Positions 32,086 through 35,182 of a stretch of 64,000 bases of DNA are shown here, piece after piece. Under the pieces are notes generated by a model, which searched no databases, was not told the DNA's origin, and saw nothing but the letters and a program-made list of their open reading frames with translations. This DNA comes from Rhodocaloribacter litoris (lineage in GTDB: Bacteria; Bacteroidota; Rhodothermia; Rhodothermales; ISCAR-4553), in assembly GCF_011682235.2 (NCBI RefSeq), contig NZ_CP076718.1, positions 2,786,622 to 2,850,621 on the forward strand. The letters run 5' to 3'. Made by a program: the position numbers and the translations under genes. How positions within the stretch are numbered: the first letter of the stretch is position 1; each line of letters opens with the position of its first letter.

Positions 32086-32157
32086 GCCCGGAAAGCTGAC
32101 GATCGCGCTCACATTGCTGCCAGTGCCCCTCCCGGATTGCCGTGAGGGGCTTTTTTT
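31990..32157 (+). promoter_or_regulatory. Cysteine-responsive transcription attenuator
   Basis: Three competing stems can be drawn. Region 1 (31990-32001, CCTTTCCTCCGG) pairs fully with region 2 (32046-32057, CCGGAGGGGAGG) with two G-U pairs, holding all six Cys codons in the loop. Region 2 (32046-32054) can instead pair with region 3 (32126-32135, CCCCTCCCGG) with one bulge. Region 3 also forms the terminator with region 4 (32144-32150). A ribosome stalled on Cys codons would cover region 1, free region 2 to capture region 3 and allow read-through; otherwise 1:2 and the terminator form. The logic matches classic amino-acid attenuators. Confidence 0.8.
32125..32157 (+). terminator. Intrinsic terminator of the attenuator
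   Basis: Stem GCCCCTC/GAGGGGC (32125-32131 with 32144-32150), one C-T mismatch, then CGG/CCG (32133-32135 with 32140-32142) and an ATTG loop, followed by seven T (32151-32157). The cysM ATG begins five bases later, so the terminator can only serve to control the operon. Confidence 0.9.
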
Positions 32158-32162
32158 GTTCC

Positions 32163-33140
32163 ATGACCCAGTCTCTGATGGAAGGCACACACGTTGATGT
32201 TCTGGCTTCCCCGGCCGGACGCGCCGGGGCGTTGCGTAACGGCGTGCTGCGCCGCATCGGGCGGACGCCGCTCGTCCGGCTGCGGCGGGTGACGGCGCAC
32301 CTGCCCGAGACGGTGGCCGTCTATGCGAAGGCCGAGCACCTCAACCCGGGCGGTTCGGTCAAGGACCGGGCGGCGCTGGGCATGATCCGGGACGGGCTGC
32401 GCCGCGGGGCCCTCACGCCGGGCAAAACGCTCATCGACGCCACGAGCGGCAACACCGGCATCGCCTACGCCATGATCGGGGCGGCCCTGGGGATCCCGGT
32501 GACGCTGGCGCTGCCCGCCAACGCCTCCGCGGAACGGAAGCGGATCCTGGCCGCCTATGGCGTGGACCTGATCCTGACCGACCCGCTGGAGGGCACCGAC
32601 GGGGCGCAGCGTTACGTGCGCGAGCGCGTCGCCGCCGAGCCCGACCGCTATTTCTACCCCGACCAGTACAACAACGACGCCAACTGGCGGGCGCACGCGC
32701 GCACCACCGGGGTCGAGATCCTCGAACAGACGCGCCACCGCGTCACGCACTTCGTCGCCGGGCTGGGCACGACGGGCACCTTCACCGGCGTCACGCGGCG
32801 CCTCAAGGCGTTCGACCCCGCCATCCGCTGCTTCTCCGTCCAGCCGGACAGCCCGCTGCACGGTATGGAAGGGCTCAAGCACATGGAGACGGCCCTCGTG
32901 CCGGGCATCTACGACCCGGCGCTGGCCGACGACGACCTGCGGGTGCAGACGGAGGAGGCCTATGCCATGACGCGTCGCCTGGCCCGGGAGGAAGGGCTCC
33001 TCGTGGGCATCTCCTCCGGGGCCAACGTGGCGGCGGCCCTCCGCGTGGCCGAGACGCTCCGCGAGGGCGTCGTCGTGACGATCCTGTGCGACACCGGTAC
33101 CCGGTATCTGAGCGATCCATTCTGGAACGAAACGCTGTGA
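32163..33140 (+). CDS. cysM: Cysteine synthase, CysM type (PLP-dependent)
   Basis: A 325-residue fold-type II PLP enzyme. The lysine that binds PLP is in LNPGGSVKDRAAL (about residue 63), the phosphate loop is GLGTTGTFTG, and the substrate loop is ATSGNTGIA. With CysO-type carriers this enzyme joins an activated serine (O-phosphoserine in mycobacteria) to protein-bound sulfide. The three following genes encode that carrier system, so a CysM role is favoured over sulfide-dependent CysK. Start at 32163, immediately after the attenuator; 32178 is an alternative. Confidence 0.9.
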   Translation: MTQSLMEGTHVDVLASPAGRAGALRNGVLRRIGRTPLVRLRRVTAHLPETVAVYAKAEHLNPGGSVKDRAALGMIRDGLRRGALTPGKTLIDATSGNTGIAYAMIGAALGIPVTLALPANASAERKRILAAYGVDLILTDPLEGTDGAQRYVRERVAAEPDRYFYPDQYNNDANWRAHARTTGVEILEQTRHRVTHFVAGLGTTGTFTGVTRRLKAFDPAIRCFSVQPDSPLHGMEGLKHMETALVPGIYDPALADDDLRVQTEEAYAMTRRLAREEGLLVGISSGANVAAALRVAETLREGVVVTILCDTGTRYLSDPFWNETL

Positions 33141-33148
33141 GGCCATCC

Positions 33149-33601
33149 ATGCTGACCCATACCGCCGTCCTCGACGCGATCCGGGAGCACGGGCGCGACA
33201 CGTACCCGGAGGAATGCTGCGGCTTCCTGCTGGGCACCTTCGCGCCGGAGGGCAACCGGGTGGTGGCCGTGCAACGCGTGCCCAACCGGCGGGCCGAGCA
33301 CCGCGAGCGCCGTTATACCATCGCGCCGGAGGACTACCGCCACGCCGAGCGGGCCGCCCGGGGCCTGGGCCTCGACGTCGTCGGCTTCTACCATTCCCAC
33401 CCGGACCACCCCGCCCGGCCCTCGGCCACCGACCTGGCCGAAGCCACCTTCCCCGGCTATACGTACGTGATCGTCGCCGTCCGCGACGGCGTCCCCGCCG
33501 ACCTGACGGCCTGGTCCCTCGCCCCGGACCGCTCCCGGTTCCTCCCCGAGGCGATCACCGTCGACGACGAAGCCCTGCGTGCGGCACAGGCCGAAGGATG
33601 A
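33149..33601 (+). CDS. mec: JAMM/MPN+ metalloprotease (Mec type)
   Basis: A 150-residue JAB1/MPN/Mov34 metalloenzyme. The zinc motif is complete: Glu in YPEECCGFLLG and HSHPDHPARPSATD (His, His and Asp ligands, with the conserved Ser). In Mycobacterium the homologue Mec+ cuts cysteine off the CysO-cysteine adduct; related JAMM proteins trim C-terminal residues from sulfur carriers. Both activities would be useful here, since the carrier ends in GGRG. It starts 8 bases after cysM; a poor-SD ATG at 33149 begins the domain. Confidence 0.9.
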   Translation: MLTHTAVLDAIREHGRDTYPEECCGFLLGTFAPEGNRVVAVQRVPNRRAEHRERRYTIAPEDYRHAERAARGLGLDVVGFYHSHPDHPARPSATDLAEATFPGYTYVIVAVRDGVPADLTAWSLAPDRSRFLPEAITVDDEALRAAQAEG

Positions 33602-33658: not shown

Positions 33659-33955
33659 ATGAGCACGACGCAGACCCTGACCGCGATCCACATCCCGACG
33701 CCGCTGCGGGCGTTCACCGGCAACCAGGCGACCGTGGAGGTGGCCGGCGAGACCGTGCGTGAGGCGCTGGCCGACCTCGTCGCCCGGCACCCGGCGCTGA
33801 AGAACCACCTGTTCGACGAGGCGGGCCGGCTCCGCTCGTTCGTCAACGTGTACGTCGGCGACGAGGACATCCGCTACCTCGACGGCCCGGCGACCGCCCT
33901 CAAGCCCGGCGACACGCTCTCCATCGTCCCGTCCATCGCCGGGGGGCGCGGGTGA
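33659..33955 (+). CDS. cysO: CysO/MoaD-like sulfur-carrier protein
   Basis: A 98-residue ubiquitin-fold carrier: TLTAIHIPTPLRAFTGNQATVEVAGETV at the start (given here in outline), and IVPSIAGGRG at the end. Active carriers end in Gly-Gly, which is adenylated and turned into a thiocarboxylate. Here two extra residues, Arg-Gly, follow the GG, so the protein appears to be made as a precursor. The neighbouring JAMM protease is the obvious candidate to remove them. Located between mec and the activating enzyme. Confidence 0.88.
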   Translation: MSTTQTLTAIHIPTPLRAFTGNQATVEVAGETVREALADLVARHPALKNHLFDEAGRLRSFVNVYVGDEDIRYLDGPATALKPGDTLSIVPSIAGGRG

Positions 33956-34003
33956 GCACCCCGGCGATCCGTCTCGAACCACCGTATCTTTCCGCACGAA
34001 ACC

Positions 34004-35182
34004 ATGGAAACCATCTCCGCTCCGAACGTGACGCTCTCGCCCGAGGAGGTGCGGCGCTACAGCCGCCACCTGATCCTGCCCGAGGTGGGGCTGGAGGGGC
34101 AGAAGAAACTCAAGGCCGCCTCGGTGCTGCTCATCGGTGCGGGCGGCCTCGGCTCGCCGCTGGCGCTCTACCTGGCCGCCGCCGGCGTGGGTCGCCTCGG
34201 CCTGGTCGACTTCGACGTGGTCGACGAGTCGAACCTGCAACGGCAGGTGCTCCACGGCACGAAGGACGTCGGTCGCTCGAAGCTCGCCTCCGCCCGCGAG
34301 CGCATCCTCGACATCAACCCGCACGTGGAGGTGGAGACGTACGAGACGCGCCTCACCAGCGAGAACGCGCTCGACCTCATCGGGGCCTACGACCTGGTAG
34401 CCGACGGCACGGACAATTTCCCCACGCGCTACCTGGTCAACGACGCCTCGGTGCTCACCGGCACGCCGAACATGTACGCCTCCATCTTCCGCTTCGAGGG
34501 GCAGGTGTCGGTCTTCGGCGCGCCGGACGGGCCGTGCTACCGCTGCCTCTACCCCGAGCCGCCGCCGCCGGGGCTGGTGCCCTCGTGCGCCGAGGGCGGG
34601 GTGCTGGGCGTGCTGCCGGGTATCGTCGGGGCGCTGCAGGCCACCGAGGTCATCAAGTGGATCGTGGGCGCCGGGGAGCCGCTCGTGGGGCGGTTGCTCC
34701 TCTTCGACGCCCTCACGATGACGTTCCGCACGCTCAAGGTGCGCAAGAACCCGGACTGCCCGGTCTGCGGCACGCACCCGACCGTCACGGCGTTGATCGA
34801 CTACGAGGCGTTCTGCGGCATCCCGCAGGCCCGTGCTGCCGCGTCGGCCGAAGCGGACGCGGTGCCCGAGATCACCGTTACCGAGCTGAAGGCCCGCCTC
34901 GACCGCGGCGAGCGTCCCTTCATCCTCGACGTCCGGAAGCCGCACGAGTACGAGATCGCCAACCTGGGCGCGCCGCTCATCCCCGTCGATGAACTGGCCG
35001 ACCGCCTGGACGAACTCGCCCCGTACCGGGATCAGGAGATCATCGTGCACTGTCGCTCCGGCGCCCGCTCGGCCCGGGCCGTGAAGCTGTTGCGCGAGCA
35101 CGGCTTCCACGGGGCCGTCAACCTCAAGGGCGGCATCCTGGCCTGGAGCGACGAGGTCGACCCGGGCGTGCCGAAGTACTGA
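34004..35182 (+). CDS. MoeB/ThiF-type adenylyltransferase with rhodanese domain
   Basis: A 392-residue fusion. The E1-like ThiF domain (1-250) has the nucleotide loop GAGGLGSPLALYLAAAGVG, the D-x-D-N motif DFDVVDESNLQRQ, and zinc cysteines in CYRC and CPVCG. The C-terminal rhodanese domain (about 285-390) has the active Cys in VHCRSGARSARA. Such enzymes adenylate a carrier's C-terminal glycine and pass sulfur to it. In this operon the target is the CysO-like carrier, though it could also serve MoaD or ThiS. A TATCTTTC element at 33985 could be a weak internal promoter. Confidence 0.9.
   Translation: METISAPNVTLSPEEVRRYSRHLILPEVGLEGQKKLKAASVLLIGAGGLGSPLALYLAAAGVGRLGLVDFDVVDESNLQRQVLHGTKDVGRSKLASARERILDINPHVEVETYETRLTSENALDLIGAYDLVADGTDNFPTRYLVNDASVLTGTPNMYASIFRFEGQVSVFGAPDGPCYRCLYPEPPPPGLVPSCAEGGVLGVLPGIVGALQATEVIKWIVGAGEPLVGRLLLFDALTMTFRTLKVRKNPDCPVCGTHPTVTALIDYEAFCGIPQARAAASAEADAVPEITVTELKARLDRGERPFILDVRKPHEYEIANLGAPLIPVDELADRLDELAPYRDQEIIVHCRSGARSARAVKLLREHGFHGAVNLKGGILAWSDEVDPGVPKY

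Follow-up and report, generated by a model that had tools for sequence, protein, structure and literature searches.

We found that a ThiS-fold sulfur carrier of Rhodocaloribacter litoris is encoded with two residues beyond the Gly-Gly needed for activation, in one operon with a JAMM protease, a CysM-like cysteine synthase and a MoeZ-like E1 enzyme. The operon lies in a 64,000-nucleotide stretch of contig NZ_CP076718.1 (the window). We consider it probable that the carrier is a capped precursor that is trimmed by the adjacent JAMM protein, thiocarboxylated by the E1 and loaded with cysteine by the CysM-like enzyme, and that the JAMM protein then releases the cysteine. The tail, the operon, the pattern at the putative cleavage site in relatives, the single E1 of the genome and the missing match to a serine acetyltransferase (CysE) are direct observations.

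The gene order is CysM-like enzyme, JAMM, carrier and E1-rhodanese, all on the forward strand. The first gene (32163–33140; scanned as 32181–33140, its start codon being uncertain between GTG at 32142 and ATG at 32163 or 32178) encodes a cysteine synthase B-like PLP enzyme of the CysM family that matches PF00291 at 244.7 bits and TIGR01138 (cysM) at 361.7 bits, the latter under the cut-off of 394.2. The second (33149–33601) encodes a JAMM/MPN+ metalloprotease, the proposed maturase and cysteine-releasing peptidase, which matches Prok-JAB (PF14464) at 92.6 bits and holds HSHPDHPARPSATD, the canonical H-x-H-x7-S-x2-D motif. Its nearest solved chain is 2kcq (E 2.1e-55), which we take to originate from Salinibacter. 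The carrier gene follows after a gap of 57 bases, and the last gene (34004–35182) encodes a MoeZ-like E1 with a ThiF domain (PF00899, 289.4 bits) and a C-terminal rhodanese domain (PF00581, 56.1 bits). Scanning the operon for promoters and terminators returned nothing useful.

The carrier (33659–33955) is a 98-residue open reading frame that runs from ATG to TGA and ends in SIVPSIAGGRG. Its 3′ codons are GCC (33938), GGG (33941), GGG (33944), CGC (33947), GGG (33950) and TGA (33953), placing the Gly-Gly at 33941–33946 and the Arg-Gly cap, which we propose is removed, at 33947–33952, with Arg at the P1′ position directly after Gly-Gly. The protein scores 50.9 bits against Pfam ThiS (cut-off 22.5) and bears its Gly-Gly end on this fold, as in the CysO-type cysteine pathway. 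The nearest solved chains, 4n6e_B and 3dwg_C, which we take to be CysO proteins, both stop at the aligned GG. An earlier note on this DNA had described a carrier ending AGGRG, two residues past Gly-Gly, beside a JAMM gene, and had stated that mycobacterial CysO ends directly in GG; the reading frame, the adjacent Prok-JAB gene with its intact motif and the end of 3dwg_C bear out these points.

In the scheme that we propose, the cutting enzyme, the sulfur chemistry and the cysteine product are what we infer. The carrier would be made as a capped precursor ending in GG-Arg-Gly, and the adjacent JAMM would hydrolyse the bond after Gly-Gly, dropping the Arg-Gly and exposing the C-terminal glycine. 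The MoeZ-like E1 would adenylate the carrier and, with its rhodanese domain, turn it into a thiocarboxylate, to which the CysM-like enzyme would add activated serine to give carrier-GG-Cys. The same JAMM would then cut the GG-Cys bond, letting cysteine out and regenerating the carrier. Mec+ is known to cut the CysO-Cys adduct of mycobacteria (PMC3227635), and because this adduct is itself a GG-X peptide bond, trimming of GG-Arg-Gly and release of cysteine would be one and the same reaction, so that maturation would need no extra enzyme. A double role of the JAMM, in carrier maturation and in cysteine release, appears reasonable on this analysis, and the adjacent JAMM is probably the trimming protease.

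Searches of the organism's own genome covered one contig of 4.50 Mb. PF02597 gave four matches there, among them MoaD (L001, ending VSGG) and ThiS (L003, ending TQGG), both with a bare GG, and a weak fourth match (L004) that was not read as a carrier. No ThiF-family protein other than the operon E1 was found in the genome. This E1 hence probably serves all three carriers, only one of which would need trimming; one E1 acting on several carriers is also a feature of the mycobacterial pathway (PMC3227635). No CysE match above cut-off was found in this genome, which favours a carrier route for cysteine and is no proof of it. The weak CysE matches are, by their sequences, presumably a NeuD-like sugar O-acetyltransferase, a polysaccharide acetyltransferase and a gamma-carbonic-anhydrase-like protein.

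The earlier note had called for a comparison of carrier C termini, and tails recur in many relatives. Carrier relatives were found in 72 of the 244 genomes of the window's class, at 74 loci in named genomes and, in the phylum to which an acidobacterium (L039) belongs, in 119 of 247 genomes. Tails and neighbours were read at 30 class loci plus 52 other rows, and the acidobacterial-phylum sample comprised 30 loci and 40 chosen stretches, a subset of the matches. The 227 loci with a carrier came to 221 once identical sequences were dropped; L154 is a truncated contig. Carriers with an adjacent JAMM (n = 157) comprise 91 with tails, 43 fused to the E1 and 23 ending in bare GG, so that 134 of 157 are extended, against 12 of the 57 (9 tails, 3 fused, 45 bare) for which at least 1 kb was read and no adjacent JAMM was seen. 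Loci with too little flanking DNA add 1 tail, 2 fusions and 4 bare ends. All 166 JAMM reading frames found keep the HxH...SxxD motif. Strong as these counts are, JAMM linkage is not a proven cause of tails: with relatedness allowed for, 214 of the 221 loci (leaving out 7 with less than 1 kb upstream and no JAMM found) gave 6 independent pairs and no significant association (sign test, median p 1). ThiS/MoaD controls, 94 carriers that are a subset of the matches listed, end in bare GG in 84 of 84 examined from the window's class and in 8 of 10 from five other genomes; the remaining two look like known partner fusions, MoaD-MoaE (L191) and ThiS-ThiG (L197), the partners being named by eye.

The presence of a JAMM does not mean that the carrier is capped, as planctomycete-type carriers are bare though 23 of 23 genomes of that search hold Prok-JAB somewhere; the same count rejects JAMM absence as the cause of their bare GG. 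Nor is the cap essential, since the nearest relative (L006; same family, 77% identical) has the same operon and a bare GG. Three acidobacterial carriers (L313, L314, L315) with a CysM gene near and no adjacent JAMM or E1 also end in bare GG, and all three genomes have Prok-JAB elsewhere. A second, JAMM-free carrier in genomes of family f10 (L139, L141–L144, L148, L150) has a bare GG as well, with about 565–605 in-frame residues upstream, and is perhaps a C-terminal carrier fusion.

The tail may have no role of its own: the position of the stop codon may simply have drifted neutrally, with little harm as a protease happens to cut there. We lean towards this account of the tail; it is compatible with a capped precursor and likely fits the Arg-Gly of the window. 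Many relatives are bare, and the tails of congeners differ, with GGRL, GGKSR, GGGL and GGHF within one genus of family f10; Roseithermus (L035, Roseithermus sacchariphilus) has GGR. A single base change in TGA suffices to give R, C, G, S, L or W at P1′. Drift does not account for the tails rich in TGT-coded cysteine that some lineages have, which we describe below.

Whatever the origin of the tails, the residue directly after Gly-Gly is restricted. Asp, Glu, Pro and Gln are absent from P1′ in all 149 extended carriers (0/101 tails, 0/48 fusions) and occur at P2′ in 36 of 131 (17/83 tails, 19/48 fusions). On the carrier tree, at least 73 changes at P1′ include none to these four residues, while about 22 separate changes to them are found among 77 at P2′, 11 among 60 at P3′ and 17 among 49 at P5′. 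With one value per identity cluster, Fisher's test gives 6e-11 at 80% identity, 4e-9 at 70% and 2e-5 at 62%. Loss of a TGA stop mostly leaves R, G, W, C, L or S in its place. We therefore set tails with these P1′ residues aside, and the tails with other residues (n = 49, 22 changes) still have none of the four, against 34% expected from downstream DNA. In the fusions P1′ is A, S, T, V or C in 48 of 48. The pattern is not universal: an additional actinobacterial set of 50 loci with a more distant JAMM, drawn after the pattern had been noticed and read by eye, includes 28 extended carriers of which 5 have Glu or Gln at P1′, which breaks a general rule; at P2′ one of the four residues is present in 2 of 20. 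An exclusion that starts right at the GG bond is the trace expected of a cleavage site, a reading that the sequences support, and the archaeal protease CsRpn11 no longer cuts its precursor when P1′ is Glu (PMC6043591).

At 48 loci, 43 of them with a JAMM gene next door, carrier and E1 form one chain with the carrier at its N terminus, and the carrier tree has about 21 changes between the fused and the unfused state. These fusions must be cut, because the glycine has to be freed for adenylation, and they are the strongest natural case for an endopeptidase. An AlphaFold model of one fusion (L023; pLDDT 82.7, pTM 0.58) has a confident carrier and a confident E1, with a low-confidence segment (residues 83–95) that holds the GG between them. 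Iyer, Burroughs and Aravind (2006) already suggest that JAB frees fused carriers (PMC1779556), and Ubl-E1 fusions are mentioned for archaea and bacteria (PMC2948915). One chain (L085) appears by eye to have a rhodanese-type domain between the carrier and the E1 part, an order unlike that of the other fusions. In the window, the carrier and the E1 share one frame across 33953–34003, in which one TGA is the only stop. Read-through of this stop to give a carrier-E1 fusion was considered and rejected: over 97 linked loci the three frames are used 34, 26 and 37 times, near thirds, and the shared frame of the window is thus chance.

The fusions and the P1′ pattern bear on whether the JAMM is the trimming enzyme at all. 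A general peptidase or carboxypeptidase might remove the cap, leaving the JAMM only to free cysteine from the carrier-Cys adduct. JAMM adjacency alone proves little here, given the 23 of 157 JAMM-adjacent carriers that end in bare GG, where trimming is not its job, and 12 extended carriers have no JAMM inside about 700 bases; of 14 genomes searched, mostly those of such carriers, 13 have a Prok-JAB match above cut-off and one (G411) has none. We find this alternative improbable, as the fusions call for an endopeptidase, the P1′ limit begins right at the GG bond, and a system that uses capped carriers lost its thiocarboxylate products when its JAMM gene, ptmS1, was deleted (PMC6006322). The precursor trimming that the earlier note proposed is supported by the P1′ pattern, by recurrent tails and carrier-E1 fusions beside JAMM genes, and by published capped carriers and archaeal precursors that JAMM-family proteases cut.

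The set might instead serve mainly SAMP-like protein modification, with the JAMM mainly stripping the modifier from proteins. The carrier passes the NCBIfam SAMP1 model (NF041918; 62.6, cut-off 60), and the best NCBIfam name for the JAMM is desampylase (NF041370). That second match is under its cut-off (96 against 130), a CysM-type cysteine synthase lies near 66 of the 69 JAMM-linked carriers with enough upstream DNA, and the E1 bears a rhodanese domain, all of which make such a function unlikely as the main one. A 3′ sequencing or assembly error, which the earlier note had named as fatal to its proposal, is scarcely credible: the GG does sit inside a run of six G, but gain or loss of one G removes the stop and gives no bare GG, so that the error would require a worse gene rather than a better one, and the tails of several relatives also start with Arg.

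Trimming of a capped precursor also bears on the cysteine-rich tails of some relatives, from which the window's Arg-Gly, with no Cys, differs. Cys is present in 39 of 101 tails. It accounts for 10.2% of all tail residues (53 of 521), and its share is 0.1% in the bodies of the carriers, 0.9% in the linkers of the fusions and 2.7% in downstream DNA translated in three frames. Counted by clusters at 70% identity, the excess is 13.4 against 5.2 residues (P 0.002); after merging of carriers at 62% identity it is lost and not significant. It is borne by Rubrobacter (10/10 tails) and one acidobacterial group. The tail codon is TGT in 41 of 53 cases (10/10 in Rubrobacter, 25/29 in the acidobacterial group), against 48 of 481 Cys codons in the neighbouring JAMM, CysM and E1 genes, a comparison for which a p-value would not be fair because the rows are related. 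The spacer to the E1 start has a median of 90 bases after Cys tails against 20 (p 0.057 within acidobacterial loci). The Rubrobacter tails (L036, L040, L043, L046, L049, L050, L053, L056, L057, L061) vary in length and share ...RC(L/R) or at least a Cys, always TGT where the neighbours have mostly TGC, and CGATGT recurs in most. Among the acidobacterial tails, SACCSCCPLL (L300) and TDAVSPCCSCCPSL (L302) each have four TGT codons, and CCPLAACCCR (L310) has five. Plain stop loss was rejected as their source, since a change of TGA to TGY partly explains a P1′ Cys and not the later ones. Some tails consist of a single Cys (L058, L138, L293, L301, L393, L397); a precursor of this kind is chemically the carrier-Cys adduct and would join the cycle just before cysteine release.

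As the JAMM would discard the tail, its codons would be free for another use. Poly-Cys leader reading frames of mycobacteria respond to cysteine (Canestrari 2020, cited in PMC9094748). As speculation that we ourselves doubt, the 3′ ends of the Rubrobacter and acidobacterial carrier genes, and perhaps others, could be cysteine sensors, in which in-frame Cys codons before the stop, mostly TGT, which is rare locally, and a long spacer to the E1 gene would let the ribosome read the supply of Cys-tRNA and tune E1 synthesis, the peptide being cut off afterwards; the Arg-Gly of the window would be the plain form. Rfam searches at the tails found no family but a tRNA in 20 loci, and none in the window, and RNA folding from tail to E1 start gave no support (mean z −0.77 for Cys tails, −1.06 for other tails, 0.10 for bare ends). 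If true, the attenuator would lie in the last codons of one of the pathway's own protein genes, whereas leader peptides are encoded separately.

HcyS is a carrier made as a precursor, and QbsE is made with a tail after its GG. Capped carriers with a cognate JAMM are already known (QbsE/QbsD, PtmS2/PtmS1), and the window's carrier is less surprising for it than first proposed. QbsE/QbsD, and PtmS2 (tail MV) and PtmS3 (tail C) with PtmS1, resemble the window's set in that one or two residues follow the GG and that the capped carrier has a JAMM gene as its neighbour; the role of QbsD as the JAMM for capped QbsE is described, and genetic evidence shows that PtmS1, the JAMM of its cluster, is needed (PMC6006322). 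Those carriers serve natural products, whereas the set in the window includes a cysteine synthase. The mycobacterial CysO/CysM/Mec+/MoeZ pathway shares homologues of all four components (carrier, PLP cysteine synthase, JAMM and E1-rhodanese); it differs in that M. tuberculosis CysO (3dwg_C) ends at GG, two residues short of the window carrier, and in that the window's E1 gene lies inside the operon. The closest operon description is type 4c of Iyer, Burroughs and Aravind (2006), with ThiS/MoaD, E1-rhodanese, JAB and cysteine synthase, listed under the abbreviations Srub, Rxyl, Susi and Caur; the part of that paper covered here holds no discussion of a C-terminal tail for this type (PMC1779556). 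In archaea, CsRpn11 and CsJAMM, of the JAMM family, cut post-GG tails from the CsUb and CsSAMP precursors, CsUb exactly after GG and with a P1′ residue that matters (PMC6043591), but the CsUb system is archaeal and lies in a ubiquitination operon. Carriers are also freed at GG from MoaD-MoaE fusions (MoaX, DR2607/DR0402), where the partner is MoaE rather than the E1 of the window's relatives; DR0402 is a JAMM (PMC8832034), and the MoaX protease is called unidentified (PMC4326299). A literature search that covered few subscription papers, and is weak evidence of absence, returned no tail survey for this operon type and no P1′ rule. We regard the P1′ rule and the cysteine-coded tails as leads that go beyond the known capped carriers.

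The capped, JAMM-trimmed carriers of natural-product clusters and archaea would with these results extend to a cysteine-synthase operon type present in several bacterial phyla. The sequence rule, that no Asp, Glu, Pro or Gln follows GG outside the additional actinobacterial set, would predict which linear fusions the protease cuts, and the carrier-E1 fusions would be enzymes whose N-terminal domain is their own substrate and can be cut off. Should the cysteine-coded tails turn out to be regulatory, nutrient sensing would have a new site, in a tail that is trimmed away.
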